A DNA stretch of 64,000 nt, from NCBI RefSeq assembly GCF_009014635.1, contig NZ_BKCF01000005.1:186001-250000 (forward strand), in the 5' to 3' direction. A model generated the notes under the pieces. The model had not been told where the DNA came from and ran no database searches. It saw only the letters and a program-made list of their open reading frames with translations. This DNA comes from Patiriisocius marinistellae (GTDB lineage Bacteria > Bacteroidota > Bacteroidia > Flavobacteriales > Flavobacteriaceae). The translations under genes were made by a program, and so were the position numbers. Below, piece after piece: positions 3,658 to 61,227 of the stretch (position 1 is its first letter; every line of letters begins with the position of its first letter).

Positions 3658-3923
3658 ATTGTTGTTTAAATTTGGGTGTAAAAATAACGATTTTAGTCCT
3701 ACGATTTACGATATAGGATTGTAGTTTTCAACCATCCTAGTTTTAGATTAAAAAATCCAGTGATTAGCATAGAATTATTAAAATAATAATTATGCGTTTA
3801 ATGTTTTATAATAATTTTGTTTTCTTCGGAAATGTGCCTAAAATGTTACTGACTAAATTTTATTAAATAGAAGAGTAATAAAACAGGTTAAATTTCAGAA
3901 GGAATAATACTTAATAAAATTTA
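3658..3923. other. Intergenic region between tamL-like gene and fbaA
   Basis: No gene or RNA is recognised in these 266 AT-rich bases. The stretch holds one exact copy of the iterated motif (CTTCGGAAAT at 3824-3833) and one single-mismatch copy (ATTTCAGAAG at 3892-3901) just beyond the stop of the TamL-like gene. Confidence 0.5.
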
Positions 3924-6512
3924 TTAGAAAGGGTAATTAATCCCAATGTTATAAACAGCATTGTTAAAATTGTACTCCTTAAACCAGCGTTCACCCTCAG
4001 GAAGTGCTGGGTTGTGAGTTTTAAAACCAGTGTCTAACCTAAAGACGAAAAAGCCAAAATCATAACGAATACCCAATCCGCTTGCAATAGCAATTTCTTT
4101 CAAATCTGCAAGACCACTAAAACGCGATGCTTCATCTTCTACATTGTCCAGCGCGTTCCAAATGTTTCCTGCGTCTACAAAAAAGGCTCCTTTAAATGCG
4201 CCTAAAATAGTAAATCGATATTCTGCATTAAATGCAAGTTTAAAATTAGCTTCATTAAAATCAAAAATGCTTCCGCTGCTTCCAGGGCCTAAGTCATAAG
4301 GGCGCCATCCTCTGTTATCATTAGCGCCACCAGCAAAATAACTACGGGTAAATGGTATGCTATTACTGTTGCCGTAAGGGATTGCAATCCCTCCAAAACC
4401 TCTTACTGCAAATACATTTTGCCCAGCAAGTTCCCAGTGTTTTATAAATTCGGCTTCAACTTTACCATATTGAGAAAATACAACGCCACCGGTTTCAAAA
4501 TTACCATCTTCATTTTTTTCAAGTCCAGCAATATTTGATATTCCCGCTAGTACGTTGCCGGCACTTTCAATTTTCCATCTAAATCTAGAAAAATTCTTAT
4601 CAAATATATTGTCTCTCGTGTCTCTTGTCCACACAAAATTTGTTGTAAAGATAAGATTGTCCTCTGTTAATCTATTGCCTCTTTCAATAACGCTTAAAAG
4701 TATATCGCTGTTGTCTGGGGAGAGGGTGTAAGGGCTTTCTGGGGCTGTTGTAGTTTGTAAAAAACTATTAATGCCATTAGGTATATTTAATACTATATCA
4801 TTGTCTTCGTCAAGGGTGTAAAAATCTGGGTTAATGATTCCAGGGTCTGCAGCTTCAATATCTCTTGCTATTTCGTTAACTTGATCAAATGAGTTGCGAT
4901 AGACATTGAAAAAATTATCTGTATTTAAATTACGTACATAGGATACATTAACAAGGTCAAGACTATTTTCTCTAATTTTTGATGGTTTCCAATTATAATT
5001 AAAAATAGCACTTAAATTTTGACGGTCAAGGCCTATGTTATTTTGTGCGTTAAACCCTATGCTTATATTTGTTCTTGGCCCCATATATTTAGGGATAATC
5101 TTGTTTGTGTTTATAGGAAATAGAAAACGCGGAAAAGATAGTTTAGCATCAACACCAAATTCTGAAATATTAAAAAAACTTTCATCATCTGCGGCATCTT
5201 TTGAAGAACCTACTGAGCCACTTCCAGTAATTTGTAGAGTTTCGGCACCTCTAAAAATATTTCTTAGCAGGAGTGAACCGCTGCCACCAATACCTATTTG
5301 TTGTATGGTAGAAGTATAAGCGTCAAAACTAGCATTGAGAGTTGCTTTTTTTCTAGGTGTTAAAAATATAGTACTTATTAAACCAGTTTTTGTGGAATCT
5401 CTAGGGTCTTCTTGGTAAGATAGATTAGGGTATTTAAAAATACGTAAATCACTAATTTGATTATAAGTAAGTGTACGGTCAATGTCTTTAAAAGTTTTAT
5501 TAGGTGTTATTGAAATAGCATCTGTAATTGCTTTAGGGCGATACCGCATTTTTTCATAACTGTACAATGTGTATCCTTTAAATTCAATAGAATCTGAAAA
5601 TTTTTTCCCTTGGTTTGCAAAAGTATAATCTGTGATAATTTTAACTTCGTTTACTTTATGTACTTTAAAGGGCTCTGTGTAGCTAGAGTCTCCTACTTCA
5701 ATTTTACGGTCAGGAATTATATAGGTCATGTTTGCCTTATGCCCTGTATTCACTGTGTCTCCTTCAAAACTTATATACTCACGGTCAAAATAGTAAAGAC
5801 CAGAATTACGCATTTGTATATTGATACGCTCTCGTTCATTTTCAAAGTCTGAAGCCTCATATTGCTTCCCTTTTTTTACAAACGCTTTTGATTTTGTCAT
5901 TTGAAAAATAGAATCAACAACAGGAGAGCTAATCCTCTCTTGAAGACTATCAACAATATACGGCATGTGCCTTGTTACATTAAAAGTGATAGCAGCACGC
6001 TTTGCTTTACTAGAGTCTGACACTATTTTATACTCTGCCTCTGTATTAAACCACCCTCTTTTTGCATACCATGATTTAACACGTTGAAGTGATTTCTCAG
6101 TCTTTTCCTTTTCAATAATTACAGGTGCATCCCCAGATTTTAATAGCCATTCATTAAAACCTACATATGTGTTTCCTAACTCATCGACTTGCTTTTTTGA
6201 TAAAAAGCGCACAAGTCGTTCTTCTCGTTTAGGTTTTTTATGCAGCCATTTGTAATATGTTGAATCTGCCTCTTGGTCTGCCATATTGTAAATATGCAAT
6301 CCCACGGGGATTCCAATGATGGGTAGCGTTGTATTTGGCCGTTGAACAAACTGGCTTTCTACACCTAGATCACTTATCTTTTCACCGTCAACAATGATTG
6401 TATTTTCAGTAAGCAAAAACTTATCATCTGGAACGTGTTTTACCGCATTACACGATAGTACTAACGCTACAAATACTAAAATTAATGATATTTTTGTGAG
6501 GCTTCTTTTCAA
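3924..6512 (-). CDS. TamL-like BamA/TamA family outer-membrane lipoprotein
   Basis: The 862-residue product has a lipobox (ALVLSC, Cys 21), then POTRA-like periplasmic domains to about residue 390, and a C-terminal Omp85-type beta barrel. The barrel part includes the late signatures FAGGANDNRGWRPYDLGPGS, FVDAGNIWN and GLGIRYDFGFFVFRLD. These features fit TamL, the lipid-anchored TamA relative of Bacteroidetes, which acts in outer-membrane biogenesis with TamB. TamB is often encoded next door in this phylum, but no TamB is seen in the adjoining genes here. It is transcribed divergently from the SpoU methyltransferase gene and has a -7 element at 6540-6533. BamA itself lacks a lipobox, which argues against that identity. 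Confidence 0.85.
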   Translation of the reverse strand: MKRSLTKISLILVFVALVLSCNAVKHVPDDKFLLTENTIIVDGEKISDLGVESQFVQRPNTTLPIIGIPVGLHIYNMADQEADSTYYKWLHKKPKREERLVRFLSKKQVDELGNTYVGFNEWLLKSGDAPVIIEKEKTEKSLQRVKSWYAKRGWFNTEAEYKIVSDSSKAKRAAITFNVTRHMPYIVDSLQERISSPVVDSIFQMTKSKAFVKKGKQYEASDFENERERINIQMRNSGLYYFDREYISFEGDTVNTGHKANMTYIIPDRKIEVGDSSYTEPFKVHKVNEVKIITDYTFANQGKKFSDSIEFKGYTLYSYEKMRYRPKAITDAISITPNKTFKDIDRTLTYNQISDLRIFKYPNLSYQEDPRDSTKTGLISTIFLTPRKKATLNASFDAYTSTIQQIGIGGSGSLLLRNIFRGAETLQITGSGSVGSSKDAADDESFFNISEFGVDAKLSFPRFLFPINTNKIIPKYMGPRTNISIGFNAQNNIGLDRQNLSAIFNYNWKPSKIRENSLDLVNVSYVRNLNTDNFFNVYRNSFDQVNEIARDIEAADPGIINPDFYTLDEDNDIVLNIPNGINSFLQTTTAPESPYTLSPDNSDILLSVIERGNRLTEDNLIFTTNFVWTRDTRDNIFDKNFSRFRWKIESAGNVLAGISNIAGLEKNEDGNFETGGVVFSQYGKVEAEFIKHWELAGQNVFAVRGFGGIAIPYGNSNSIPFTRSYFAGGANDNRGWRPYDLGPGSSGSIFDFNEANFKLAFNAEYRFTILGAFKGAFFVDAGNIWNALDNVEDEASRFSGLADLKEIAIASGLGIRYDFGFFVFRLDTGFKTHNPALPEGERWFKEYNFNNAVYNIGINYPF

Positions 6513-6532
6513 GAGGAAATTTTAATCAAGTT

Positions 6533-6540
6533 CAAAAATA
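6533..6540 (-). promoter_or_regulatory. -7 promoter element for the TamL-like gene
   Basis: The reverse strand reads TATTTTTG, matching TAnnTTTG exactly, 21 bases before the start codon. Confidence 0.45.
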
Positions 6541-6547
6541 GAGAAAA

Positions 6548-7276
6548 TTGATAAGTAAAAGTCAAATTAAATTAATAACAAGTTTGAAGCAAAAAAAGTA
6601 CCGTGCTATTGAAGGACTTTTTGTTGCAGAAGGTCCTAAGGTAATTGCCGAACTTATTGCTTCAAATATGGAATTACATAGTCATTTTTCTTCGGAAATA
6701 AATGCTGTTGAAAATGATAAGACTCATAAAATTACAGCGACCGAACTTAAAAAAATTAGTTTTCTTACTACGGCAAATAAATCATTGGCACTGTTTGAAA
6801 TTCCACAAATTTCCGAAGTTAATAAAAGTGGATTGACCGTTGTTCTCGATGCTATTAGAGATCCTGGAAATCTAGGGACAATTATTAGACTTTGTGATTG
6901 GTTTGGCGTGGAACAATTAGTGTGTTCGCTAGATACGGTGGATTGCTATAATCCAAAAGTTATACAAGCAACGATGGGGTCTATTGCTCGGGTTAATGTT
7001 CATTATATTGATGTTTCAGCATTTATTAAAAATACAGAGCTCCCAGTATATGGGGGTGTGATGAATGGCAATAGTATTTACAATGAGGCATTACCTGCAG
7101 ATGCAATTGTTGTTTTAGGAAATGAGGCAAATGGTATTTCAAAAGTTATTATGGAACAATTGACTCATAGAATTACGATACCGCAATTTGGAAAATCTCA
7201 AGAAACCGATAGTTTAAATGTAGCTACAGCTACGGCTGTTTTGTTGAGTGAATTTAGAAGGACTACTGGAATGTAA
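6548..7276 (+). CDS. TrmH/SpoU family RNA 2'-O-methyltransferase
   Basis: The 242-residue product is a SPOUT-fold methyltransferase expected to methylate a ribose in rRNA or tRNA with S-adenosylmethionine. All three SpoU motifs are visible: DAIRDPGNLGTIIR, VVLGNEANGIS, and the knot segment QETDSLNVATATAVLLSE near the C-terminus. An N-terminal substrate-binding region (MISKSQIKLITSLKQKKYR) precedes them. The start is TTG at 6548, because the next ATG would remove the conserved N-terminus. The 3' end overlaps the convergent porT gene by 14 bases. The exact target nucleotide cannot be told from sequence. Two copies of the iterated 10-mer lie inside the gene in opposite orientations (6690 and 6809). 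Confidence 0.9.
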   Translation: MISKSQIKLITSLKQKKYRAIEGLFVAEGPKVIAELIASNMELHSHFSSEINAVENDKTHKITATELKKISFLTTANKSLALFEIPQISEVNKSGLTVVLDAIRDPGNLGTIIRLCDWFGVEQLVCSLDTVDCYNPKVIQATMGSIARVNVHYIDVSAFIKNTELPVYGGVMNGNSIYNEALPADAIVVLGNEANGISKVIMEQLTHRITIPQFGKSQETDSLNVATATAVLLSEFRRTTGM

Positions 7277-7970: not shown

Positions 7971-7973
7971 AAA

Positions 7974-8711: not shown

Positions 8712-8719
8712 TGCGGGTG

Positions 8720-8854: not shown

Positions 8855-8878
8855 CACCATTATTCGTAAGAACTTTCT

Positions 8879-11765: not shown

Positions 11766-12575
11766 CTACTCAACATCTGTTATCATAATTTCTACACGTC
11801 TATCCTTAGTGTTGTTTTCTCCAGTGGGTTGTCTAAACGCCATTCCTTCATAGCGCATTCTTCTTCTTTCAATACCTTTTTTTCTTAGAAAATTGTAGAG
11901 TGCTTGAGCACGTGCTTCGCTTAAATTGTTTTTACCCGTTCGCACATTTATAAAATCGTTTCCTGGGCGTAGTGGGTCACCGCAGCATACATGGCCAATT
12001 AATTTAAATTTAATGTTAGCATTTTCTTTTAAAAAAATTGTCAATTTGTCAAGAGCATCTCTGCTTTCGTCCATAATGACATCTCTGTCTTGATAAAACA
12101 TAATGCCTTCAAGCGTAATTTTATCACCCTTCTTTAAACTACTTGTAAAAGAAGGTTTTTTCTTAGGAACAATAATTGGCTCAATAATAATATCACCAGC
12201 TTCTGGAATATGATCTTTTTTGTAATGTACTAAAATATCAACTCGTCTATTTTTAGCTGCATCTGTATCGAGTTCACCGTAACCTTGCGAAGAGATAATA
12301 GTAAACTCCCGTAGCAGGGCAGTCACATTTGCCGCACGTTCATTAGAAAGTTTTAAATTATACTCTGGACTTCCCAAACTATTAGTATATCCTTTTATAT
12401 GGATATCAAGTTCGTCCTTTTCTTCGGAAATATTAATGCCTTCAATAATCTGCAAATGTTGTGCACTTAGTCTAGCAGAATCATGCTCAAAATACAAAGA
12501 AAACTTTTGTTCCGTTTCTTGGCAAATTGCCAAAAGTGGAAATAATAAGAAGAATAGAAGATAAGTACGTTTCAA
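11766..12575 (-). CDS. OmpA-family protein with two tandem OmpA-like domains
   Basis: The 269-residue product has a signal peptide (cleavage near AICQE) and two peptidoglycan-binding OmpA_C-like domains. The first (about residues 25-120) carries the signature IHIKGYTNSLGSPEYNLKLS and ends KNRRVDI. The second (about 150-265) carries KLIGHVCCGDPLRPGND and LSEARAQALYNFLRKKG and ends TKDRRVEI. No barrel domain is present, so the protein is probably periplasmic and attached to the wall. It is a stand-alone gene upstream of nothing in its own direction except the convergent trkH. An iterated-motif copy lies inside at 12422. Confidence 0.85.
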   Translation of the reverse strand: MKRTYLLFFLLFPLLAICQETEQKFSLYFEHDSARLSAQHLQIIEGINISEEKDELDIHIKGYTNSLGSPEYNLKLSNERAANVTALLREFTIISSQGYGELDTDAAKNRRVDILVHYKKDHIPEAGDIIIEPIIVPKKKPSFTSSLKKGDKITLEGIMFYQDRDVIMDESRDALDKLTIFLKENANIKFKLIGHVCCGDPLRPGNDFINVRTGKNNLSEARAQALYNFLRKKGIERRRMRYEGMAFRQPTGENNTKDRRVEIMITDVE

Positions 12576-12652
12576 TGCTAAAATTTTGATCCAACTATAA
12601 AAATATAAAAATTAAAATAGATGACATTTAGGCTCACATTTCCGAAGCTATT

Positions 12653-15138: not shown

Positions 15139-16239
15139 TTAAGCGGAAAGAGCGGGATTCATTCCCATTTGCTTTAAATGATTAAAATGTGCAATTAGTG
15201 CTTTTCTTGTTGTCTTATATTCATTGTAAGGCAGATTGAATTCAATAGCTGTCTCACGAACTATTTTTGAAATTTTTGTATAATGTACATGGCTAATATG
15301 TGGAAAAATATGGTGCTCTACTTGATGATTTAAACCACCCGTAAACCAATTCATTACTTTGTTTTTTGTTCCAAAGTTTACTGTTGTAAATAATTGATGA
15401 ATTGCCCATGTATTTTTCATAGTTCCAGAAGCGTCAGGTAATGGCATTGCAGCATCCTCCACGACATGTGCAAGTTGAAAAATGGTGCTTAAAATAACAC
15501 CTGCTACATAGTGCATAATGAAGAAGCCAATTAAAATTTTCCACCATGCAATGTCAAAAAATAATAATGGTACTACTATCCACATTCCAAAATAGATTAT
15601 TTTAGTGATTATTAAAATACTCCATTGTTTAGTGGGCTTCGGAAATTTACCAAAAGATAATTTTCTTTTTAAATATCTACTTGTCTGTTGAAAATCTGTT
15701 GTTAATGCCCAGTTGAAAGTAAGAAGACCATAAAGAAGAAAGCCATAATAATGCTGGAATTTATGCATTCTATTCCATTCTGCATGTTTAGAAAAACGAA
15801 GTACTCTTCCTGCTTCTAAGTCTTCGTCATGTCCATGAATGTTGGTATATGTATGGTGCAATACATTATGTTGTACTTGCCAGTTATATACATTTCCGGC
15901 TAGAATGTATATACTACTACCCATTATTTTATTAATCCATTTTTTTGAGGAATATGATCCATGATTTGCATCATGCATGACATTCATACCTATCCCAGCC
16001 ATTCCTACTCCCATTAAAATGGTAAATAAGAGTTGCGCCCACGTTGGAAAATTAAGGGTTAATAATAAAAAATATGGGGTAAGGTAAATTGCAAACATTA
16101 TCACCGTTTTTAGATGAAGTTTCCAGTTACCTGTGCGTTGTATGTTGTTCTCTTTAAAGTACGAGTTAACGCGCTTATTGAGCGTTCTAAAGAATTTTGC
16201 CGAATCTACTCTAGAAAATTTAAGTTGAGTCTCAGTCAC
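15139..16239 (-). CDS. Membrane fatty acid (acyl-lipid/acyl-CoA) desaturase
   Basis: The 366-residue di-iron membrane desaturase introduces a double bond in acyl chains, which helps membrane fluidity in the cold. The three histidine boxes are all present: MHDANHGSY, HNVLHHTYTN and NHQVEHHIFPHISH. The last box has the Q-x-x-H-H form of front-end/delta-6 or acyl-lipid desaturases. Hydrophobic pairs flank them (about residues 45-80 and 215-255). No cytochrome b5 domain is fused. The regiospecificity cannot be told from the sequence. It is divergent from rsmG and carries a -7 element at 16287-16280. Confidence 0.92.
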   Translation of the reverse strand: MTETQLKFSRVDSAKFFRTLNKRVNSYFKENNIQRTGNWKLHLKTVIMFAIYLTPYFLLLTLNFPTWAQLLFTILMGVGMAGIGMNVMHDANHGSYSSKKWINKIMGSSIYILAGNVYNWQVQHNVLHHTYTNIHGHDEDLEAGRVLRFSKHAEWNRMHKFQHYYGFLLYGLLTFNWALTTDFQQTSRYLKRKLSFGKFPKPTKQWSILIITKIIYFGMWIVVPLLFFDIAWWKILIGFFIMHYVAGVILSTIFQLAHVVEDAAMPLPDASGTMKNTWAIHQLFTTVNFGTKNKVMNWFTGGLNHQVEHHIFPHISHVHYTKISKIVRETAIEFNLPYNEYKTTRKALIAHFNHLKQMGMNPALSA

Positions 16240-18807: not shown

Positions 18808-19047
18808 TTTATTTTTTTTTAATTAAGTAAGTAATTTATTGAAATAAATGAAAATAGGCAAATTAATTGGTGTCAAATACTTTATGTTTTTTTGATTGAA
18901 GGTCTAGTGTTTTTGTAGGCTTAAGTTTTGGTTTTTAATTTAGTATATGGTTTTTTAAAAATTTTGTTAAGCTGTCGTTCCTCCAATAAAAATTCTAAAT
19001 CAGAATAATAATTATGCATATTTCCGAAGAAAAATATTGTATAAAAA

Positions 19048-25846: not shown

Positions 25847-25986
25847 ATGCTTCGGAAATATTAAGGCTAGAAGTTTTCAAGCACTGTTTATAAGTATTTT
25901 TTTTAATAATAAAGACTTTTTACAACCTTATAAATCAAAACCTATAAGGCGTAATCCTTATAAAATTTTATCAAAATTAACCGAAT

Positions 25987-26023: not shown

Positions 26024-26069
26024 AAATAAATTATTTTCAATCTTTAAAATTTCCGAAGAATTTTAAAAA

Positions 26070-27961: not shown

Positions 27962-28666
27962 ATGTGCACATTAACGTTTATTCCTACCTCTTTTGACAAC
28001 TTTGTCCTAACTTCAAATAGAGATGAAGCCCCAGGAAGAGCTACAATTGCACCACAGGAGTATGATGAGAATGGAACTAAATTACTATTCCCTAAAGATG
28101 AGCTTGGTGGAGGTACATGGATAGGTGTTTCAGAAAAGAAAAGGCTTATTTGTCTTTTAAATGGGGGTTTCACTACCCATGAGAGAGCAGAATCTTATAG
28201 GATGAGTCGCGGAATTATCGTGACAGATTTATTGACTTCGGAAATTTTAAAAACCGAAATTGATTCCTACAATTTTAAAGGCATAGAGCCATTTACAATC
28301 ATTGCTGTAGATTGGGCAAAAGAATTGCATTTGTATGAGTTGGTATGGGATGGGAAAGAATCACATTTTAGTGAAAAGCCATTAGCACCACATATTTGGT
28401 CTTCATCGTTGTTATACACGCCTACCGTTAAAAAACAACGTGAATTATGGTTTTCAAATTTTTTGTTTAAAGAAGTACGTCCCACAAATACTCAAATTTT
28501 GAATTTTCATAAAACCGCAGGCATAGGAGATGTCGTAAATGATATAGTAATGGATCGCGGTTTTGTAAAAACCAAAAGTATTACTCAAATTAGTAAGAGT
28601 GAGGATACGATCAATATGTACTATGAGGATTTACAATCTCAAAAAATAACAAAAACTACTTTTTGA
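27962..28666 (+). CDS. NRDE family (TANGO2-like) protein
   Basis: The 234-residue product begins MCTLTFIPTS and has the family-naming motif TSNRDEAPGR at about residues 18-27, then LGGGTWIGVS and a CLLNGG segment. The eukaryotic relative TANGO2 has been linked to haem and lipid handling, but bacterial NRDE proteins have no settled role. The conserved Met-Cys start recalls N-terminal-nucleophile hydrolases. Its stop overlaps the TTG start of the next gene by 4 bases (TTGA), so the two are translationally coupled. Confidence 0.88.
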   Translation: MCTLTFIPTSFDNFVLTSNRDEAPGRATIAPQEYDENGTKLLFPKDELGGGTWIGVSEKKRLICLLNGGFTTHERAESYRMSRGIIVTDLLTSEILKTEIDSYNFKGIEPFTIIAVDWAKELHLYELVWDGKESHFSEKPLAPHIWSSSLLYTPTVKKQRELWFSNFLFKEVRPTNTQILNFHKTAGIGDVVNDIVMDRGFVKTKSITQISKSEDTINMYYEDLQSQKITKTTF

Positions 28667-31432: not shown

Positions 31433-32821
31433 TTATTCAGCTAATACTTTGGTAGGTATGATGTTTTTATTTTTTGCAACAAAACTTTCAAGAGTATTAA
31501 AGAAGTTTAAGATGTCACTATCTTCATTACCTGCATTTATAGTAACCAATCGCACAAAAGTGGTCCCGTTAAAATTTCCGAAGCCTACCATTAACGCCGC
31601 GTCTTCATACAAGCGAGTACATAATTCTTGAGCAGGAATGCCTTTATAGTTGAAACAAATAGAAATTGAATTATCGTAACTGTAAAGTGTGTAATCTGAG
31701 TTGCTTTTAATATAATTGCGAGCAACATCGGCAAGATGAAACTGGTGATCAACCATTTTTGAGAGTCCTTTTGTACCTACACTTTTCCATAGGGTCCAAA
31801 ATTTAAGCGCATCATTGCGTCTTCCACATTGTAACGATGTCTTCCCTAAGTTATAATCATCACCGTCTGTCTGGTACAAATAAGCTGCATCGTTTGAAAA
31901 TGAGTCGTGTAAATGTTTTTTATGCTTTGTTAAAATTATTGAACACGATAGCGGTGTGCCTAACATTTTATGAGCGTTGTAGCTAAATGAGTCTGAATGC
32001 TCAAGACCTTTGACTAGGTGTTTATATTTTTCACTAAAAATTACACTGCCACAATAAGCGCCATCAACGTGTAGCCAGATGTTATATTTTTTACAAATTT
32101 TTGAAAGTGGTTCAATAGGGTCAAAGGCTCCTAAAACAGTTGTGCCCGCAGTGGCATTAACAAAGAAAGGGTGATTGCCAGCGTCTATATCTTTAATAAT
32201 TTGTTTTTTTAAATCTGCCGCAAGCATTTCCCCATAATCATTTGTCTTAATGAAATGCACTTGTTTTCTCCCAATTCCAGCAAAAGCTGCATTTTTAGGA
32301 GTAGAATAGTGTGACTCTGCTGAGGTGTAAACGATCAATTTTTGAGTAACACCATCTTGAGGAATGTTTGCATTGTAGGCGTCTCTCGCCATCAATAGTG
32401 CCATAAAATTGCTCATAGAGCCTCCCGGGGCAAATGTTCCGTCTGCATCTTTTCCATAGCCAATTAAGTCACAAGATTTGTGAAGAATTTCTTTTTCAAT
32501 ACCTACTTGTGGTCCAGCAACTTTATAAGTGTACATGCTGTTGTTGAGCAATACTGCAAGTAAATCTCCAATGGTAGCCTTGGGATTTCTTCCTCCAAAA
32601 AGTTGGTTAAAAAATAGCTTGGTTGCTGTTTTTGGAGTGCTCTCTATTAATCTTCCTAGTGTGTCTTCAAAAAACTCATCAGAAACTGGATTGTCATCTA
32701 ATGAAATACTGAGTGTGTCGTACAATTCATCTGCAGGTATGGGGGTTGCGATGGGATTCTTTTTTTCAGCTTCAAATAATTTATTGGCAAGTCTTTGAAA
32801 GAGTTCTAGATCTTTTTGCAT
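31433..32821 (-). CDS. PLP-dependent group II amino acid decarboxylase
   Basis: The 462-residue enzyme belongs to the group II decarboxylases (glutamate, aromatic amino acid, cysteine sulfinate). Visible signatures are the substrate/cofactor region FAPGGSMSNFMALLMAR, the HVDGAYCGS aspartate that contacts the pyridine nitrogen, and the PLP-lysine motif SYNAHKMLGTPLSCS at about residue 285. The family's usual SGTT/GTT region appears as NATAGTTVLGAFDP. The substrate cannot be assigned, though the N-A-H-K form recalls cysteine sulfinate/aspartate-type enzymes. The -7 element TATATTTG lies 18 bases upstream. An iterated-motif copy is inside the 3' part (31574). Confidence 0.88.
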   Translation of the reverse strand: MQKDLELFQRLANKLFEAEKKNPIATPIPADELYDTLSISLDDNPVSDEFFEDTLGRLIESTPKTATKLFFNQLFGGRNPKATIGDLLAVLLNNSMYTYKVAGPQVGIEKEILHKSCDLIGYGKDADGTFAPGGSMSNFMALLMARDAYNANIPQDGVTQKLIVYTSAESHYSTPKNAAFAGIGRKQVHFIKTNDYGEMLAADLKKQIIKDIDAGNHPFFVNATAGTTVLGAFDPIEPLSKICKKYNIWLHVDGAYCGSVIFSEKYKHLVKGLEHSDSFSYNAHKMLGTPLSCSIILTKHKKHLHDSFSNDAAYLYQTDGDDYNLGKTSLQCGRRNDALKFWTLWKSVGTKGLSKMVDHQFHLADVARNYIKSNSDYTLYSYDNSISICFNYKGIPAQELCTRLYEDAALMVGFGNFNGTTFVRLVTINAGNEDSDILNFFNTLESFVAKNKNIIPTKVLAE

Positions 32822-34596: not shown

Positions 34597-34792
34597 ATAG
34601 GGTATTTTAACTTCGGAAATATGTGGCGTTTAAATAATAATAACTGTTTTAAAATTTCAGAAATTATTTAAAATGTTATTTAATGTTGCTAATATAAACA
34701 AATTTTGTGCCCTAAAATTGTACACTTTTGCTTCCAATATATTTCCGAAGAAAATTCCTATTTAAATTATTGTAAGATGGTTCTTTAATGTT

Positions 34793-34873: not shown

Positions 34874-36226
34874 ATGTCCAAAGACATTAAGATTAAAAAA
34901 GGTCTTACCATTCGCTTAAAAGGCGAAGCGGATAAAACACTTTCAAACGCACCGCGTTCTCGCACATTTGCTATCATTCCTAAAGATTTACACTTAATTA
35001 CACCTAAGATGGTTGTAAAAGAAGGTGCTAAAATACAGGCTGGTGATACGATTTTTTATAGTAAAGACAACGAGGACATCAAGTTTTCATCACCTGTGAG
35101 TGGAACGTTAACGCAAATTGAGCGTGGCGCAAAACGTGTGATCACAAAAATATTGATTGAAGCTGATCAACAAGATGCGTTTAGAGATTTTGGTATTAAA
35201 AATCCAGACTCGATGACTGCAGATGCTATTAAAAATCATTTGTTAGTTTCAGGATGTTGGGCTTTTATTAAGCAACGTCCTTACGATGTTATTGCGAATC
35301 CAGAAGTAATGCCTAAGGCTATTTTTATTTCAGGAATTGATACAGCACCCTTGGCAACAGATCTTGATTTTGCTTTAAGCGGAAAAGAGACAGCGTTGCA
35401 AGCTGCGTTGTCTGCATTAGCAAAATTAACTGAGGGAACTGTGCACGTTACGTTGAGTAATAATGGAAACTCTCCTCTTGCTAATTTGAATGACGTGGTA
35501 TATCACAAAACAAATAATTTGCATCCTGCAGGAAACGTGGGAACTCAAATAAATAAAATTAATCCTGTAAATAAAGGAGAGACTGTATGGACAGTTGCTG
35601 CGCAGGATTTGGTAATTATTGGAGAGTTGTTCTTGACAGGAAAATATAATACAGAGCGTGTTGTTACGCTTGCAGGATCATCAGTTAAAAATCCTAAGTA
35701 TTATAAAACACGTCTAGGTAGTGAAGTAGCTACGGCGGTTTATGATTCTGGATTAAACGAAGAAAATGTGCGTATTATCTCTGGGAATGTGTTAACTGGG
35801 AAAGCGATTTCGCCAAAACAACATTTAGGCTTTTATCATAATGCCATAACGGTAATTCCAGAGGGTGATGATTATGAATTCTTTGGTTGGAATAAGCCTG
35901 TTTTTGATAAAATTTCAACATCAAGAGCGTTGACATTTTCATGGTTATTTCCGAAGAAAAAATTTGACCTTAATACAAACACAAACGGTGAACACAGAGC
36001 ATTTGTGTTGACTGGAAATTATGAGGAGGTCTTTCCTTTAGATATTTATCCAATGCAAATAATGAAAGCATGTATGGTTCAAGACCTAGATGCGATGGAA
36101 GCACTAGGGATGTATGAAGTAGCTCCAGAGGATTTTGCCTTGACTGAATTTGTTTGTGTGTCAAAACAGCCACACCAAGAAATTATAAGAAACGGACTTG
36201 ATTTAATGTATAAAGAAATAGGATAA
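34874..36226 (+). CDS. nqrA: Na+-translocating NADH:quinone reductase subunit A
   Basis: The 450-residue peripheral subunit of the Nqr complex begins MSKDIKIKKGLTIRLKGEA and has the family blocks IPKDLHLITPKMVVKEGAKIQAGD, SPVSGTLTQIERGAKR and the late DIYPMQIMKACMVQDLDAMEALGMYEVAPEDFAL. Nqr couples NADH oxidation by quinone to sodium export, a hallmark of marine bacteria. It starts a six-gene operon with very short gaps (3 bases to nqrB). One exact iterated-motif copy lies in the coding sequence (35947-35956). No flavin is carried by this subunit. Confidence 0.96.
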   Translation: MSKDIKIKKGLTIRLKGEADKTLSNAPRSRTFAIIPKDLHLITPKMVVKEGAKIQAGDTIFYSKDNEDIKFSSPVSGTLTQIERGAKRVITKILIEADQQDAFRDFGIKNPDSMTADAIKNHLLVSGCWAFIKQRPYDVIANPEVMPKAIFISGIDTAPLATDLDFALSGKETALQAALSALAKLTEGTVHVTLSNNGNSPLANLNDVVYHKTNNLHPAGNVGTQINKINPVNKGETVWTVAAQDLVIIGELFLTGKYNTERVVTLAGSSVKNPKYYKTRLGSEVATAVYDSGLNEENVRIISGNVLTGKAISPKQHLGFYHNAITVIPEGDDYEFFGWNKPVFDKISTSRALTFSWLFPKKKFDLNTNTNGEHRAFVLTGNYEEVFPLDIYPMQIMKACMVQDLDAMEALGMYEVAPEDFALTEFVCVSKQPHQEIIRNGLDLMYKEIG

Positions 36227-40980: not shown

Positions 40981-41004
40981 TCTCTTCGGAAATATAAAAA
41001 CATT

Positions 41005-47403: not shown

Positions 47404-47471
47404 ATTAGGTATTTTTCTTCGGAAATATTAAGGCTATAAAATAATTGTACTTCATTGACAGTTATCTATAA

Positions 47472-48341: not shown

Positions 48342-48478
48342 CACTATTTGTTTTTTCTCGTTTTGACTTCTTAATTTTTAATCAAATTTGATTGCTTCGA
48401 GCTTTAAAATTTCCGAAGAAAACAAAACTATAAATCAACCACAAATTTCTACGGAATAACAACTGCCCATAAATAAAA

Positions 48479-51081: not shown

Positions 51082-51834
51082 TTTTCTACAAACAGGAAGT
51101 AACTCACCTTTTGCAATACGATAGCGCTCAATATCCTCGTTAGATATTTTTAAGGTATAATCTAAAGCTTCAACATTAAAACCTATTGATCTTAACTTAT
51201 CAAAATAATCCATTCCATAAACGCGTACATGGTCGTATTGGCCAAAGATTTCTGTGCGTTCTTTTTGATCAGTAATGGTGTTGTCTTCAAAAGTAACTGC
51301 TCGCTCATTTTCTAAAGGAACTTGAAGTATTGCAATGCCTCCTGGAGCAAGTACTCTATACAATTCTTGCATTGCTTTAGTATCGTCTGGAATATGTTCT
51401 AAAACATGATTGCAAATAATAAAATCGTAGCTGTTATCTTTAAATGGCAGTGCGCAAATATCTGCCTTTACATCTGCTATTGGAGAGTTAAGGTCTGTAG
51501 TGGTGTAGTCAATATTTTTCAGTTTTTTAAATTTCCGAAGAAATGCTTGCTCTGGTGCAAAATGTAAAACTTTTAAATTTTCGGTAAAAAAATTAGTTTC
51601 ATTTTTTAAATACACCCAGAATAATCTGTGCCTTTCTAGTGATAATGTTCCCGGAGCCAGAACATTTTCACGTACGCGAGCATATCCATAGGGTAAAAAT
51701 TTACGGTAAGATTTACCATCTATGGGGTCTAAGTATTTGTCACCTCTTAAAAAAAATGCAACAAGAGGTCGCACCAAATAACTTATGCGAATAAGAAAGG
51801 TTCTTGGGAATAGGTTAAGAAAAAATTTAAACAT
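51073..51834 (-). CDS. Class I SAM-dependent methyltransferase
   Basis: The 253-residue product has a class I methyltransferase core: the modified motif I region (VLHFAPEQAFLRKFKKL, then YTTTDLNSPIADVKADI), motif II-like ALPFKDNSYDFIICNHVLEHIPDD, and the post-motif RVLAPGGIAILQVP. The N-terminus (MFKFFLNLFPRTFLIRISYLVRPLVAFFLRG) is hydrophobic and basic, like that of enzymes acting on membrane lipids or sugar substrates. The substrate is not evident. It has its own -7 element (51864-51857) in the 32-base gap after map. One iterated-motif copy lies in the gene (51531). Confidence 0.85.
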   Translation of the reverse strand: MFKFFLNLFPRTFLIRISYLVRPLVAFFLRGDKYLDPIDGKSYRKFLPYGYARVRENVLAPGTLSLERHRLFWVYLKNETNFFTENLKVLHFAPEQAFLRKFKKLKNIDYTTTDLNSPIADVKADICALPFKDNSYDFIICNHVLEHIPDDTKAMQELYRVLAPGGIAILQVPLENERAVTFEDNTITDQKERTEIFGQYDHVRVYGMDYFDKLRSIGFNVEALDYTLKISNEDIERYRIAKGELLPVCRKLV

Positions 51835-53757: not shown

Positions 53758-55271
53758 TATAAAAGTGATTTTTGTGTCATTTCTTCTGGCTGTTCTATTC
53801 CTATTAATTTTAAAATTGTAGGTGCAATATCTCCCAAAACACCATTATTTATATGTTCAATTTTTTTATCCACTAAAATAAGTGGGACAGGGTTTGTAGT
53901 ATGTGCTGTATTAGGAGATCCATCTTCATTACGCATAGTTTCACTATTACCGTGGTCTGCAATGATTATTGTGGTATAATCATTTTGTATGGCAGCTTCC
54001 ACAATGCTTTTTGTACAAACATCTACAGTCTCACAAGCTTTTATAGCTGCAGATAATACACCTGTGTGACCCACCATATCTGGATTAGCAAAATTGAGAC
54101 ATATAAAGTTTGCAGTTTTGTTTTCAATTTCTGGGATAATTTTATCTCTTATCTCATAAGCACTCATTTCTGGCTTTAGGTCATACGTTGCTACTTTTGG
54201 CGATGGACATAAAATGCGTTTTTCTCCTTTAAAAGGTTCCTCTCTTCCACCGTTAAAAAAGAAGGTTACATGTGGGTATTTCTCTGTTTCAGCAATTCTA
54301 ATTTGAGTTTTATCGTTGGCTTCAAGAACTTCTCCAAGTGTTTTAGTGAGGTTGTCTTTGTTATAAATTACTTTAATGTTTTTAAAGGATTCGTCATAAT
54401 TAGTAAGTGTTACAAAATAAAGCGGCAACTTTTTCATTCCAAATTCCTCAAAATCTTGTTGAGATAAGACTTCGGTTAATTCTCTTCCTCTATCTGTTCT
54501 AAAATTAAAGAAAATTACAACATCGTCTTTTCCGATTGTGGCTATTGGTTCTGTGTTTTCGGTACATACAATAGGTTCGATGAATTCATCAGTAATTCCA
54601 TTTTTATATGATTTTAATATTTCCGAAGAAGGATTATTTGTTGCAGTCCCTTTTCCGAAGCATAACAAATCGTATGTTTTTTTTATGCGTTCCCACCTTT
54701 TATCTCTATCCATTGCAAAGTAGCGACCAATAACGGTAGCAAGCTTTCCAGTGGTTTTTTCCATATGCTGCTCAAGTGCTTTTATATGTCCTGCGCCAGA
54801 TTGTGGATCCACATCTCTACCATCAGTAAATGCATGCACAAATACATTTTTAAGCTGAGCGTTATTTGCAGCAGTGAGTAACCCTTTAATATGATTTATG
54901 TGTGAATGAACCCCGCCATCTGAAACTAGACCAACAAAATGTACTTTTTTATCATGTGCTTTTGCGTATGAAAATGCCTCTTTTAAAACAGTTTCATCTT
55001 TGAGTGTATCCTTTGCAAGTGCGAGATTAATTTTTGCTAAATCTTGATAGACAATGCGTCCTGCGCCCAAATTCATGTGTCCTACTTCACTATTTCCCAT
55101 TTGACCATTGGGAAGTCCTACGTGCTCTCCGTGAGTCAATAATGTACTGTGTGGGTACTTTGTGTAGAGGGAGTCTATAAATGGAGTTTGTGCTTGCGCT
55201 ACTGCTGAAACTTTATGGTCTTGTGTGACGCCCCAACCATCTAAAATTAGAAGAATTACATTTTTGTTCAT
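53757..55271 (-). CDS. gpmI: 2,3-bisphosphoglycerate-independent phosphoglycerate mutase
   Basis: The 504-residue two-metal enzyme interconverts 2- and 3-phosphoglycerate. Visible features are LLILDGWGV at the N-terminus, the catalytic serine region QMGNSEVGHMNLGAGR (Ser near residue 61), HAFTDGRDVDPQSG, and the alkaline-phosphatase-type metal sites at NFANPDMVGHTG and IIADHGNSETM. The length fits the family (about 510). The -7 element TATCTTTG lies 20 bases upstream. An exact iterated-motif copy (54619) and a near copy (54651) lie within the gene, 24 bases apart. Confidence 0.96.
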   Translation of the reverse strand: MNKNVILLILDGWGVTQDHKVSAVAQAQTPFIDSLYTKYPHSTLLTHGEHVGLPNGQMGNSEVGHMNLGAGRIVYQDLAKINLALAKDTLKDETVLKEAFSYAKAHDKKVHFVGLVSDGGVHSHINHIKGLLTAANNAQLKNVFVHAFTDGRDVDPQSGAGHIKALEQHMEKTTGKLATVIGRYFAMDRDKRWERIKKTYDLLCFGKGTATNNPSSEILKSYKNGITDEFIEPIVCTENTEPIATIGKDDVVIFFNFRTDRGRELTEVLSQQDFEEFGMKKLPLYFVTLTNYDESFKNIKVIYNKDNLTKTLGEVLEANDKTQIRIAETEKYPHVTFFFNGGREEPFKGEKRILCPSPKVATYDLKPEMSAYEIRDKIIPEIENKTANFICLNFANPDMVGHTGVLSAAIKACETVDVCTKSIVEAAIQNDYTTIIIADHGNSETMRNEDGSPNTAHTTNPVPLILVDKKIEHINNGVLGDIAPTILKLIGIEQPEEMTQKSLL

Positions 55272-55792: not shown

Positions 55793-55816
55793 ACTCTTGG
55801 TTTTAAGGTTGAAAGC

Positions 55817-56700: not shown

Positions 56701-56738
56701 AATTATAATTTTAAAGGGTATATTTTTATCAATTCAAT

Positions 56739-57485: not shown

Positions 57486-57528
57486 TATGTATATTGAGGT
57501 GCTTTAAAATTACTATAATTTAAGAATT

Positions 57529-57954
57529 ATGACGGCTAATTTCTCCATTATTCCTCCTTCTGAAATATTAAAAATCATTCCACTTTTAGGCGTTATTGGA
57601 GACCATAAAGTTCCAGAAGCTATTTTAAAAGAAAGAGTGCTCGAAATGAGTATTCAAAATTATGAGTGTATTGCCATCACCTACGAGGAAAAGTTAATAG
57701 GCATTTGCGGCATGTGGTTTCAAACAAGGCATTATGCGGGTAAAAGTGTGGAAATAGACCATGTGGTAATCGAAGAAAATTTCCGAGGAAAAAAAATAGG
57801 TGATCAATTAATGCAATTTATATATGGATATGCCGCTTCAAAAAAATGCCGTTGGGTGGAACTTAATACATATGTACATAATTTTCCATCACATAAATTT
57901 TATTATAATCAAGGGTTTGTTGCTAAAGGATATCATTTTGTGAAAGAACTTTAA
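57529..57954 (+). CDS. GNAT family N-acetyltransferase
   Basis: The 141-residue product is a compact GNAT with the acetyl-CoA site in motif A (VVIEENFRGKKIGDQLMQFI, R-x-x-G-x-G variant) and a motif B-like region (CRWVELNTYVHNFPSHKFYYNQGF). The acceptor is unknown. It lies divergent from the M15 gene by 43 bases and convergent with pepE. A near copy of the iterated motif (ATTTCCGAGG) falls in motif A. Confidence 0.9.
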   Translation: MTANFSIIPPSEILKIIPLLGVIGDHKVPEAILKERVLEMSIQNYECIAITYEEKLIGICGMWFQTRHYAGKSVEIDHVVIEENFRGKKIGDQLMQFIYGYAASKKCRWVELNTYVHNFPSHKFYYNQGFVAKGYHFVKEL

Positions 57955-57970
57955 TAGATAAAATGAGAAT

Positions 57971-58669
57971 CTAAAATGTAAGCTTGGTTAGTTTTTCCAC
58001 TTCATAAGCTTCTTTAGCTTGTTCAAAAACCCTTGCAGATAAATGTCCTTTTAAAGTTATGTTTTCACCTTTAACCTCTAGCCAACTTCCTTCGCGAAGG
58101 CCCACAACGGGTACTGTGTTTTGAGTATGATATTCTTTAATCCTAGTTTCGCGGGTTTCACCCATGTGTTTTGTAGGTGAAGGGTCGAGGAAGTGTGCGT
58201 TTATATTGAAAGGGATGACACCTAAAGTCTTAAAAGAAGGTGGGTAAACAATAGGCATATCGTTTGTGTTTTGCATAGTAACACCGCAGAGATTGCTACC
58301 TGCACTGGTTCCTAAATAGGGGGTTCCTTCAAGTAGCATCTCTCTTAAGGGTGCCATTAATTTTAGGTCGTGCATTTTTTTTACTAATAGAAATGTGTTC
58401 CCGCCACCAGTAAAAATTCCTTTTGCATTTTTAATGGCTTCAATAGGATTTTCAAAAGTGTGAATGCCTACGAGCTTTTTGTTGATTTTGTGGAAAAATG
58501 TTGCAGCCTTTTCAGTGTATGTGTCGTGTGAAATTCCACTAGGTCTAGCAAATGGGATGAATAGAATTTCATTAGTATTTTTAAAGTGTTTGACTAAAAC
58601 TTCTTCAAGATATTCTAGGTAACCACTTCCATAAATAGTGGAAGTACTTGCAACGATTAAATTTTTCAT
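57971..58669 (-). CDS. pepE: Dipeptidase E
   Basis: The 232-residue enzyme is an S51 serine peptidase that cuts Asp-Xaa dipeptides. The nucleophile is in YLGTSAGSNLCGV (Ser122), matching Ser120 of the Salmonella enzyme. The GIFTGGGNTFLLVKKM turn and the VVGLREGSWLEV region are also present. The length is typical. It is convergent with the GNAT gene with a 16-base gap. Confidence 0.93.
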   Translation of the reverse strand: MKNLIVASTSTIYGSGYLEYLEEVLVKHFKNTNEILFIPFARPSGISHDTYTEKAATFFHKINKKLVGIHTFENPIEAIKNAKGIFTGGGNTFLLVKKMHDLKLMAPLREMLLEGTPYLGTSAGSNLCGVTMQNTNDMPIVYPPSFKTLGVIPFNINAHFLDPSPTKHMGETRETRIKEYHTQNTVPVVGLREGSWLEVKGENITLKGHLSARVFEQAKEAYEVEKLTKLTF

Positions 58670-58774
58670 TCGTATTTAAATATGTGTAAAGGTAGGTATC
58701 TTGCTTAAAATTTTAACAAAATGTAACAGATTGCTAGCAATAGATTTCCGAACTTTATACAAAGAACCAGACCA

Positions 58775-59599
58775 ATGAAACTAACAACCATATTTTTGTA
58801 TTTGCTTTTGGTGCCTTCTTGCATCATAGCACAGGAAGCACAACGTGTTTTAGTTAATGGTTATATTACTGCACCCGTAGGCGATATTGTTGAAGGTATT
58901 CACGTCTATAATATTTCATCTCAAAAAGGAACAGTTACTGATGCCAATGGCGAATTTAAACTTGAAATGGCAATTAATGAGCGGTTAGAAGTTACTTCAT
59001 TACAATATGTGGGTTTTAAGGTTATAGTTGATAAAGGTATTATTGATAATATGCAAGTGCGTATCTATTTAAACCCAATGGTTAATGAATTGAAAGAGGT
59101 AATTATAAGACCTTATGACCTTTCTGGAAACATTGCCGTAGATGTGGGCAAAATTAACACTTTTAACCCTAATCAAGGTTGGGATTTATCTTATGAGCAA
59201 TTAGAGTTTGGGTATGAATTTGCACCAGATGGTGTTACTGCAATACAAGGTAATGTTGCTCAAGATGCCTACTATAATGGGCAACAACAATATGGTGGTG
59301 ATTTAATAGGAGGTTTAGGGCTGTTGAAAAATCTTATCTTCGGAAGGTCTGAAAAGGAAAAACCTGCTTCACAATTACAAATAGAAAGCGAGTTAATAGC
59401 AAATGGAATAAGAGGAAGATTTACAAACCAATTTCTAACAGAAAATTATAATATACCCGCTGAGTTGGCAACAGATTTTGTGTATTATGTTCAAGAAAGT
59501 GGCATCCCGCCCACGTATTTAAAACCCGAAAATAAACTATTACTACTGGACTATTTGACAGGCAAGAGTAAAGAATATCTTAGAACAATTGAAAAATAA
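58775..59599 (+). CDS. Secreted carboxypeptidase-regulatory-like domain protein, paralogue 1
   Basis: The 274-residue product has a signal peptide (ending SCIIAQE) and an N-terminal carboxypeptidase-D regulatory-like beta-sandwich (about 26-105, ITAPVGDIVEGIHVYNISSQ, GTVTDANGEFKL). A conserved C-terminal half follows (LSYEQLEFGYEF, AYYNGQQQYGGDLIGGLGLL, LIFGRSEKEKP, FVYYVQESGIPP). The two genes downstream are paralogues with the same plan. The last codons read ATTGAAAAATAA, and the next gene starts inside them at a TTG. The function is unknown; this domain class is common in TonB-linked and outer-membrane-associated proteins. Confidence 0.8.
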   Translation: MKLTTIFLYLLLVPSCIIAQEAQRVLVNGYITAPVGDIVEGIHVYNISSQKGTVTDANGEFKLEMAINERLEVTSLQYVGFKVIVDKGIIDNMQVRIYLNPMVNELKEVIIRPYDLSGNIAVDVGKINTFNPNQGWDLSYEQLEFGYEFAPDGVTAIQGNVAQDAYYNGQQQYGGDLIGGLGLLKNLIFGRSEKEKPASQLQIESELIANGIRGRFTNQFLTENYNIPAELATDFVYYVQESGIPPTYLKPENKLLLLDYLTGKSKEYLRTIEK

Positions 59600-60374
59600 A
59601 ATTTCCATACTTTTAATTAGTTCTTTTACAGCGTTTTCTATGTTAGCTCAACAAGAAAAAATCAAAGGACAATTGACAAATACTGTAGATGTTGGTGGTA
59701 TAGAAATTATGAATGAAACGTCTGGTTCAATTGCTTTTACAGATGAAAATGGAGCCTTTGAAATTAAAGCAGATAAATTTGATGTTTTAAAATTTTCTGC
59801 AATAAATTATTTTACATTTAGATATAACGTATCTCGAAATAACTACACGAGTAAAACAATGGAGATTACTCTTGAGCCAATTTTAAATGAACTAGATGAG
59901 GTAAACTTAAGTAAGAATAAGGCAGATATTAGCTTTAATGACCCTGCGAAGGATGTTGAGTTGTCTTATGAAGAATTAATGTTTCAATATACCTCTAATT
60001 TTAATTCAGATGTAGGCATTAGTGGTACGGCTGCAAATAATGCCTATCATAATGGACAAACACAAAATGGATTAGATTTAATAGGCGGTGCAAAACTACT
60101 AAAGTATGTACTTTTTGGAAGACCAGAAAAAAATAAGACTGCAGATCAACTATTAAGAGAAAAAGAATTTATTGCCAAAGAGACAAGAAAAAGATTTTCA
60201 GATGAGTATTTGATGGACAACTATGATATTCCTCAAGAAGCAATTGTTGATTTCTTTTATTATGTTCAAGAGGATGGAGTTCCACTTGATTATTTTGATC
60301 CAAAAAACGAACTATTATTACTCAACTTCATGTTTGAAAAGAGTAAAGAATATTTAGAATATATTGAAAAATAA
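59589..60374 (+). CDS. Secreted carboxypeptidase-regulatory-like domain protein, paralogue 2
   Basis: The 261-residue product starts at TTG 59589, 11 bases inside the previous gene. That start is favoured because it gives a full signal peptide (MKNKISILLISSFTAFSMLA); the first ATG would remove it. The regulatory-like domain (residues about 20-100) and the C-terminal half (LSYEELMFQY, NAYHNGQTQNGLDLIGGAKLL, VLFGRPEKNKT, FFYYVQEDGVPLDYFDP) closely follow paralogue 1. Again the gene ends in ATTGAAAAATAA, with the next gene starting at the internal TTG. Translational coupling is likely. Confidence 0.8.
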   Translation: MKNKISILLISSFTAFSMLAQQEKIKGQLTNTVDVGGIEIMNETSGSIAFTDENGAFEIKADKFDVLKFSAINYFTFRYNVSRNNYTSKTMEITLEPILNELDEVNLSKNKADISFNDPAKDVELSYEELMFQYTSNFNSDVGISGTAANNAYHNGQTQNGLDLIGGAKLLKYVLFGRPEKNKTADQLLREKEFIAKETRKRFSDEYLMDNYDIPQEAIVDFFYYVQEDGVPLDYFDPKNELLLLNFMFEKSKEYLEYIEK

Positions 60375-61131
60375 ATACCTTTTAATTTTAATATTGTTCT
60401 GTTGTCCAGCAATTAATACGCTTGGGCAACAAGTTGTTATAAAAGGTGTTTTAACTAACGATATTGATGTTGAGTCCATTCAAGTTTATAACACAACCTC
60501 AAGATTTAACACCATAACAGACCAAAACGGAAACTTTGAAATAGAAGCTTTTAAAAATGATACGTTAGTTTTTTCGGCAGTTAATTATTATACTCGTAAA
60601 GCTGTAATCACAGAAGAAAACTATAATTTTAAACATATAGAGGTGACACTTGTACCCATTTTAAACGAACTAGATGAGGTATATCTAGGGCATAGATTGA
60701 CGGGTGATTTAGCAAATGATATAAAAAATGTAAAAACAGATGACCCCTTTAATTTTGATGATGTAGGCATTCCAGGCTTTAAAGGAAAACCTGAGGAAAA
60801 AATACCTCCAGTTTTAGGTGGTGTTGTTAGTATAACTTCGGTTGATGTTGAGGCGCTTTACAAATATCTTTCAGGTTATTATAAAAATTTAAAATTACTT
60901 CGGAAATGGCAATCACAAGATGCAGCCGTAGCAAACATTTTACATGGGTACATGCCTAGTTTGCTTGAAGAGGCTTTTGGAATTCCTGAAAATAGAGCGT
61001 TTGATTTTGTTTTGTTCTGCGTCGAAACCACAACACTTGAAAACGAATTTAAAAATGAAAACTACGAGCTTGTTCTTGATATATTTCAGAAGAAAGCTCC
61101 AGAATACTTAAAAGGATTGGTAAAAGAATAA
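60364..61131 (+). CDS. Secreted carboxypeptidase-regulatory-like domain protein, paralogue 3
   Basis: The 255-residue product starts at TTG 60364, overlapping paralogue 2 by 11 bases. The signal peptide is MKNKYLLILILFCCPAINTLG. The regulatory-like domain matches paralogue 2 well (GVLTNDIDVESIQVYNTTS, NELDEVYLGH). The C-terminal half has diverged: it lacks the NGQ and YYVQE blocks and instead has PVLGGVVSITSVDVEALYKYL and a final EEAFGIPENRAFDFVLFCVE. This may be a sub-functionalised copy. An iterated-motif copy lies in it (60898). Confidence 0.78.
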   Translation: MKNKYLLILILFCCPAINTLGQQVVIKGVLTNDIDVESIQVYNTTSRFNTITDQNGNFEIEAFKNDTLVFSAVNYYTRKAVITEENYNFKHIEVTLVPILNELDEVYLGHRLTGDLANDIKNVKTDDPFNFDDVGIPGFKGKPEEKIPPVLGGVVSITSVDVEALYKYLSGYYKNLKLLRKWQSQDAAVANILHGYMPSLLEEAFGIPENRAFDFVLFCVETTTLENEFKNENYELVLDIFQKKAPEYLKGLVKE

Positions 61132-61227
61132 CGTGTGTTTTAATCCATTTATATTTCCGAAGAGATAGAAAGGAATAATTTTTGTAACATTGCGAAAATC
61201 TAGACTACTAACAGTATTTGCATTCCT

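Follow-up and report, generated by a model that had tools for sequence, protein, structure and literature searches.

A 64-kb stretch of the Patiriisocius marinistellae genome (NCBI RefSeq assembly GCF_009014635.1, contig NZ_BKCF01000005.1, positions 186,001 to 250,000; hereafter the window) carries, within its genes and between them, many copies of a 10-bp word, CTTCGGAAAT, which is the subject of this work. In a previous reading of the sequence alone, 21 exact copies had been counted, 11 of them intergenic. This is confirmed here: all 21 were located where they had been placed, 11 on the forward and 10 on the reverse strand (Table 1), and 11 of the 21 fall outside the listed open reading frames (ORFs), while the number expected in the window is 0.11 and the largest count in 100 dinucleotide shuffles was 1. 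The two additional copies of the 8-bp core described at 54653 and 59338 are real, and the 20-mer common to 25850 and 47417 is identical at both places. The window holds 15 one-mismatch copies; those given as 3892, 17026 and 58744 were correctly positioned, whereas the one reported at 57776 lies at 57779. What the sequence-only reading overlooked is that neighbouring copies are paired in convergent orientation.

Table 1. Copies of the motif and of its variants in the 64-kb window (G076 is a congener of the genome under study).
Position	Strand	Description
3824..3833	+	Exact motif, intergenic; faces one-mismatch CTTCTGAAAT at 3892
3892..3901	-	Variant CTTCTGAAAT, 68 bp from 3824, facing it
6690..6699	+	Exact motif, left of convergent pair within one gene (119 bp)
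6809..6818	-	Exact motif, right of 119-bp pair within one gene
12422..12431	+	Exact motif, left of convergent pair (216 bp), coding
12638..12647	-	Exact motif, right of 216-bp pair, intergenic
15637..15646	+	Exact motif, coding
17026		One-mismatch copy
19020..19029	-	Exact motif, intergenic
25850..25859	+	Exact motif, left of intergenic convergent pair (199 bp); 20-mer common with 47417
26049..26058	-	Exact motif, right of 199-bp pair; same word at the aligned G076 place, flanks 55% identical
28236..28245	+	Exact motif, coding
31574..31583	-	Exact motif, coding
34611..34620	+	Exact motif, left of intergenic convergent pair (130 bp)
34741..34750	-	Exact motif, right of 130-bp pair; same word in G076, flanks 50% identical
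35947..35956	-	Exact motif, coding
40984..40993	+	Exact motif directly 3' of a stop codon; same word in G076
47417..47426	+	Exact motif, left of wide convergent pair (992 bp) enclosing one gene
48409..48418	-	Exact motif, right of 992-bp wide pair
51531..51540	-	Exact motif, coding
54619..54628	-	Exact motif, coding
54651-54660	-	One-mismatch copy CTTCGGAAAA, same strand as 54619
57779		One-mismatch copy
58744		One-mismatch copy
59338..59345	+	8-bp core CTTCGGAA alone
60898..60907	+	Exact motif, left of convergent pair (255 bp), coding
61153..61162	-	Exact motif, right of 255-bp pair, intergenic

The genome under study (G000; 3,338,299 bases in 30 contigs) carries 833 copies of CTTCGGAAAT (428 on the forward and 405 on the reverse strand), or about one per 4 kb, as compared to 16 (4 and 12) of the same word read backwards, which served as the genome-wide control. 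Two samples of this genome were analyzed: one of 464 kb, used for the Markov, codon and flank tests, in which 20 stretches of 20 kb were added to the window, and an enlarged one made of the window plus 40 stretches (864 kb, 26% of 3.34 Mb, with 235 sites). The stretches were placed by hand at steps, and hence not at random, on contigs 1-5 of the 30, and their genes were called by a greedy longest-ORF heuristic rather than taken from an annotation. In the 464 kb, CTTCGGAAAT ranked first among all 10-mers (142 observed; order-3 Markov expectation 0.93, z 146) so that, together with its abundance throughout the genome, the excess is not local to the window. The heavy over-representation claimed for the motif therefore holds, the count being far from the Markov expectation and the excess being restricted neither to the window nor to one codon context. 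Genes carry copies on either strand, and copies between genes, often near gene 3' ends, are about six times denser (1.13 per kb, 90 of the 235 sites) than those within genes (0.185 per kb, 145 sites). Over the 41 stretches there was no clustering excess per 20 kb (mean 5.4, variance 4.4).

The 86 coding sites of the 464-kb sample were found in all six frames (25, 22, 22, 9, 5 and 3 copies), whereas only 2.14 would be expected from the encoded proteins and the codon usage. This is an approximately 40-fold excess, with each frame raised 22- to 164-fold, and on the basis of this synonymous-codon test a codon artefact was ruled out. Of the coding places where the peptide allows the word, between four tenths and two thirds were occupied by it, depending on the frame (for instance, 22 of 46 for xFGN and 25 of 57 for ISEx). 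The motif is thus selected at the level of DNA, and neither as protein nor as RNA.

Alignment of the 142 sites of the same sample disclosed a longer element in which the 10-mer is preceded by T at -3 (66%) and -2 (59%) and followed by w, by T at +11 (81%) and by A peaks at +13 (66%), +14 (49%), +22 (62%), +24 (50%) and +42 (56%). The peaks at T-3, T-2, T+11, A+13, A+22 and A+42 were each present in the 86 coding and in the 56 intergenic sites and, since they were found separately in coding DNA, they do not result from AT-rich intergenic sequences. The later A peaks fall about 10 and 30 bases past +13, close to whole helical turns. Two forms of the tail had been distinguished previously; they fall within one consensus, in which wTnAA follows the core and further A peaks come after it. 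In the two congeners, T-2, T+11, A+13 and an A at +21 to +24 recur (47 sites in G076 and 22 in G287). One-mismatch forms were scarce in the 464 kb (CTACGGAAAT, CTGCGGAAAT, CTTCAGAAAT and CTTCGGAAAA, 10-11 copies each) with the exception of CTTCTGAAAT, of which there were 43 against 2.4 expected. The sites of CTTCTGAAAT carry the same flanks at -3, -2, +11 and +13, and those of TTCTGAAA with another first base (T in 80%) at -3, -2 and +13; on the basis of these common flanks, both look like weaker versions of one element. Separately, 100 copies of a second form, TTTCTGAAAT, were counted in the 864-kb sample.

When neighbouring sites of the enlarged sample were considered, 60 adjacent pairs less than 1 kb apart were found, 43 of which were convergent (CTTCGGAAAT ... 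ATTTCCGAAG), 8 divergent and 9 tandem (binomial p ~4e-14 for the convergent excess against one in four, pairs being taken as independent). Two control words gave 13/49 and 8/24 convergent pairs within the same distance, the second of them, TTCATCAA, having the same leaning at 60-300 bp (6/10). Below 300 bp, the convergent arrangement prevailed when both sites were coding (14/18), both intergenic (12/16) or one of each (3/3). The main group of convergent spacings extended from 24 to 283 bp, followed by two pairs at 300-600 bp and 12 at 654-992 bp, which shows that the facing arrangement is preferred at 24-300 bp and, more weakly, up to 1 kb; an exact facing partner was present within 1 kb for 91 of the 235 sites and absent for the other 144. 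As an additional observation, five of the 12 convergent pairs at 600-1000 bp enclose a whole gene. The variants obey the same arrangement: within 300 bp of exact sites (228 sites), CTTCTGAAAT was facing in 11 cases as compared to 3, 3 and 1 in the other arrangements, and TTTCTGAAAT in 16 as compared to 5, 6 and 1. Exact/variant pairs were convergent in 41 cases as compared to 14, 14 and 8. In G076, 8 of 12 pairs below 1 kb were convergent; in 13 motif-rich loci of named genera, scored with 8-9-base cores, the figures were 8/13 at 60-300 bp and 12/29 below 1 kb. The pairing rule is, therefore, strong in G000 and receives support from G076; in the other genomes and loci it is weak or unclear.

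Two structural explanations of the pairs were examined. Beyond the core, the flanks of the paired copies are complementary at chance level (162 matches against 161.5 expected, standard deviation 9.9, in 29 pairs) and mismatched partners are common, which argues against a hairpin as the general role of a pair. With respect to mobile-element ends, 6 of the 43 convergent pairs below 1 kb could be aligned over their full length to a congener, and none showed a pair-sized gap. Gaps amounted to 0-1 bases at L004 12196-12390 (G076 and G287), L004 19775-19901 (G287), and L005 7125-7372 and 12099-12966 (G076), and were small in the other two pairs (5 + 7 bases over 129; 13 + 11 over 668). The motif ends of these pairs differ from the congener by substitutions and, at L004 19775-19901, the pair is also present in G287 with one change at one end. 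All six overlap genes, in whole or in part, wholly intergenic pairs being outside the comparison, so that it is for gene-overlapping pairs that the absence of pair-sized gaps argues against mobile-element ends. Four convergent pairs with sites only 24-26 bp apart (L011:1313, L016:13529, L012:4410 and L233:16422) could form stems of -10.6 to -19.9 kcal/mol, and these may double as terminators or attenuators.

The two congeners carry 605 and 345 copies of the motif. Across the 397 genomes of the family, the count table shows at least 100 copies in 20 genomes of 12 genera (G000 included), and in most of the family the count is about equal to that of the reversed control or lower. In the other motif-rich genera the core CTTCGGAA is common and the 3' bases that follow are freer; these looser 3' ends are like the dialects of uptake sequences. 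In small samples of loci from 80 contigs (approximately 5 to 23 kb), the core was frequent in 2/2 loci of Altibacter, 5/6 of Psychroserpens and 2/2 of Ulvibacter, and absent or rare in those of Winogradskyella, Nonlabens, Aquimarina and Gilvibacter. Among 395 genomes of the order, the highest counts of CTTCGGAAA were those of G000 (967), G076 (817) and G045 (425), all in this family. The motif does, however, extend to some degree beyond this family, since many genomes of family f5 show a milder excess. In G694 there were 146 copies of CTTCGGAAA (76 + 70) against 19 (9 + 10) of the control, an enrichment similar to that of G045 (425 against 80), and a related dialect may exist in f5, outside the Flavobacteriaceae of the window. 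A search for dialects in four motif-poor genomes (100 kb each) yielded no clear other word. In L113-L117 (G279:C1), a 10-mer, AGTGAGCAGT, and its shifts occurred 12-13 times in 100 kb, perhaps as one tandem repeat. When only the sites that aligned were counted, the word was identical in 9/24 between G000 and G076, 1/22 between G000 and G287, and 2/13 between G076 and G287, with matched control 10-mers conserved in 4.9%, 4.8% and 7.4%, respectively. Thus, within the genus the word is kept while many sites turn over.

We believe that CTTCGGAAAT, with its T-rich upstream flank and its spaced, A-rich downstream flank, is on balance probably a DNA uptake sequence (DUS), that is to say, a putative self-recognition tag of a natural-transformation machine in this genus of marine Flavobacteriaceae. 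Of the roles proposed in the sequence-only reading this is the one that fits best, because a core with spaced AT segments, dispersal, coding enrichment in six frames, a word kept while sites are lost, and dialects are all traits of DUS and of uptake signal sequences (USS). To our knowledge, uptake sequences are known from only two groups, Pasteurellaceae and Neisseriaceae, and their users import DNA by a type IV pilus/secretin route. We found no match to the secretin model PF00263 in G000, although the same model matches 6 of 14 control genomes. Since the known users have pilus and secretin and no secretin was found here, we would say that the motif appears to work like a DUS or USS and claim no membership in the pilus-dependent class. 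The Neisseria DUS, a dispersed self-tag with dialects between genera, is bound by the pilin ComP. Its word is the 12-mer ATGCCGTCTGAA (PMC2346458), and P. marinistellae differs in the word, in the phylum and in the lack of a detected secretin.

The closest parallel is the USS of Haemophilus and other Pasteurellaceae, made of a GC-containing core of about 9-10 bp plus AT-rich segments, with more than 1000 dispersed copies on both strands, a lower density than expected in coding DNA, a subclade with a second dialect, and short inverted pairs acting as hairpins (PMC7811141, PMC2346458). Its AT segments are thought to aid the kinking of DNA at entry, and its uptake depends on type IV pilus and secretin (PMC7811141). 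The motif in G000 resembles it in the core with spaced A/T flanks, in being dispersed over both strands and in being denser between genes. In contrast, the two cores are unrelated, the pairs in G000 are mostly convergent, extend to 24-300 bp and more and also occur inside genes, and the PF00263 search found no secretin. For Bacteroidota, the matches listed in searches of the open full-text literature (which leaves out preprints and most subscription journals) included no report of an uptake sequence save for the question raised in PMC7965970. The letters CTTCGGAA occur in 852 papers, of which those listed seem, judging by their titles, to concern primers, and an earlier mention of the word is possible. 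PMC7965970 describes that Riemerella columbina favours its own DNA; A-rich words are among its 10-mer counts, and it leaves the question of a sequence open. No uptake sequence is thus established for Riemerella, whereas a motif word was found here.

In Riemerella anatipestifer, transformation requires ComEC, DprA, ComF, RecA, a HHH protein and a DUF1343 protein, and also RS04920 (DUF5689/DUF5017) and the adjacent RS04915, a carboxypeptidase-regulatory-like outer-membrane protein (PMC8459023). Like R. anatipestifer and R. columbina, G000 has ComEC, DprA, the DUF1343 family and a gene pair with the same domains: its one DUF5689 protein, of 472 amino acids and with a weak DUF5017 match, is encoded next to a 952-amino-acid protein with a carboxypeptidase-regulatory-like domain. 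The latter may be a barrel by analogy with the Riemerella protein (PMC8459023), although it matched no barrel family. On these four items a competence apparatus is predicted for G000. An ORF like that of 472 amino acids was present in 79 of 80 loci retrieved with the 952-amino-acid protein, and directly after it in all 45 loci with coordinates. An approach that ties orthogroups to motif dialect has been described for ComN and the USS (PMC12616744); here, inspection by eye showed no parallel between the identity of the 952-amino-acid protein and the motif richness of named loci, and the presence of DUF5689, found in 357 of the 397 genomes of the family, was of no use as a discriminator of motif-rich ones.

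The way in which such a tag could operate can be outlined as follows. A surface receptor would bind the duplex motif in a fixed orientation, motif-bearing DNA would enter more often and recombine into the chromosome, and copies would spread through recombination biased in this way. A short fragment with two facing sites would be handled better than a fragment with a single site; perhaps a symmetric receptor, or a pair of receptors, would hold a leading DNA loop by its two arms, with the A-rich tracts inside the loop helping entry. In its most specific version, which we put forward as a tentative possibility that is not the likelier outcome, a pilus-free outer-membrane importer of Bacteroidota would read a two-site code, drawing in a loop that bears two facing, oriented copies at flexible spacing, and the genomes of the clade would be written as convergent motif pairs in and between genes. 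We know of no other uptake sequence with such a convergent-pair grammar.

Several results weigh against the uptake interpretation. The pairing rule is not predicted by the known uptake systems, since USS pairs of Haemophilus, which occur within 14 bp in both orders, give no gain in uptake when they lie within 100 bp, according to PMC7811141. Moreover, convergent pairs below 1 kb were 2/4 in G287, too few to tell, and in eight other motif-rich genomes, scored with 8-9-base cores, they amounted to 16/36 at 60-300 bp and 32/102 below 1 kb. With regard to the flanks, the A peak at +42 was missing in G076 (47 sites) and T-3 in G287 (22 sites), and, with 9/24 sites kept in G076, some copies may also have a local role. 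Motif-free gaps longer than 9 kb were present in 9 of 41 stretches against 10.9 by chance (95% range 6.5-16), and so give no sign of a depletion in foreign DNA. The presence of DUF5689 throughout the family, mostly in genomes without many motif copies, and the lack of a DUF5689 match in motif-rich G202 (68% complete; 1 of the 20 motif-rich genomes) have to be added. Finally, the predicted structure of the DUF5689 protein (mean predicted local distance difference test score of 85.9) resembles adhesin and carbohydrate-module folds, with no DNA-binding fold among the matches listed; these model-based matches would neither support nor exclude DNA binding. Among particular regions, a ribosomal protein operon (L238:4149-20000; S7, EF-G, L3 to SecY; 10 proteins scanned) has no CTTCGGAAA over about 16 kb. 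The word is also absent from an O-antigen/polysaccharide cluster (L011:1338-13360) and from a stretch of low GC content that holds regulators and transporters (L015:2461-16231), such gaps being no more frequent than expected by chance.

The main rival is a DNA-bridging or nucleoid-organising protein with sites throughout the genome, a dimer of which would sit on two facing copies and loop the DNA between them. The convergent rule at flexible spacing, with both arms recognized independently, the spaced A peaks on the inner side, which fit bent DNA, and the sites kept in G076 are compatible with such a protein. Nevertheless, we consider it unlikely, because the share of peptide-compatible coding places that carry the word (four tenths to two thirds) exceeds the expected need of regulation or folding, the single aligned site kept out of 22 in G287 implies a turnover above that expected for either, and the many sites without an exact facing partner and the lack of clustering speak against it. 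A recombination signal of the Chi type, recognized on linear DNA by AddAB or RecBCD, would also account for an over-represented, oriented word in coding sequences, and opposed pairs bounding a protected middle piece would be sensible for fragments entered from both ends. Chi and the FtsK orienting polar sequences (KOPS), which are likewise short, over-represented and oriented chromosomal words, are skewed in orientation, whereas with GC skew as the stand-in for origin position 122 sites in G000 run with it and 113 against it (235 sites, 41 stretches) and pairs are convergent, so that the skew of Chi and KOPS was not seen. Furthermore, a spacing of 24-26 bp between facing sites is too short to contain useful homology, and no Chi as long as a 10-bp core with spaced flanks is known to us, all of which makes this explanation improbable.

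Weaker still is the proposal that a decayed mobile element, or a family of miniature inverted-repeat transposable elements, left the pairs behind as its terminal inverted repeats. It draws on the convergent orientation, the short 24-300 bp spacing and the one common 20-mer, and the alignments to congeners bear on gene-overlapping pairs, wholly intergenic ones lying outside them; yet the absence of pair-sized gaps, the ends that differ by substitutions and the fact that coding copies follow codon choice leave it a very low probability. The least credible alternative is an RNA element, be it a hairpin, a transcription terminator or a UUCG-type loop, a role that the sequence-only reading had also listed. 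The folding of the four shortest pairs, the location of many intergenic copies near gene 3' ends and the report that overlapping USS pairs act as terminators in Haemophilus (PMC7811141) suggest that the shortest pairs may serve an RNA role as a secondary use. As a general role it is argued against by copies on both gene strands and in six frames, by the 144 sites that lack an exact facing partner, by complementarity at chance level with no compensating excess, and by the use of mismatched partners.

If the uptake interpretation is correct, Pasteurellaceae and Neisseriaceae would not be alone in having evolved sequence-specific DNA uptake: it would have arisen anew in a phylum where the transformation genes described are unlike pilus systems, and the motif would provide a handle on the receptor of that machine. 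Convergent pairing would then represent a grammar that can be tested with synthetic fragments, and the distribution of the motif points to genera that may be capable of natural transformation and of exchanging genes.

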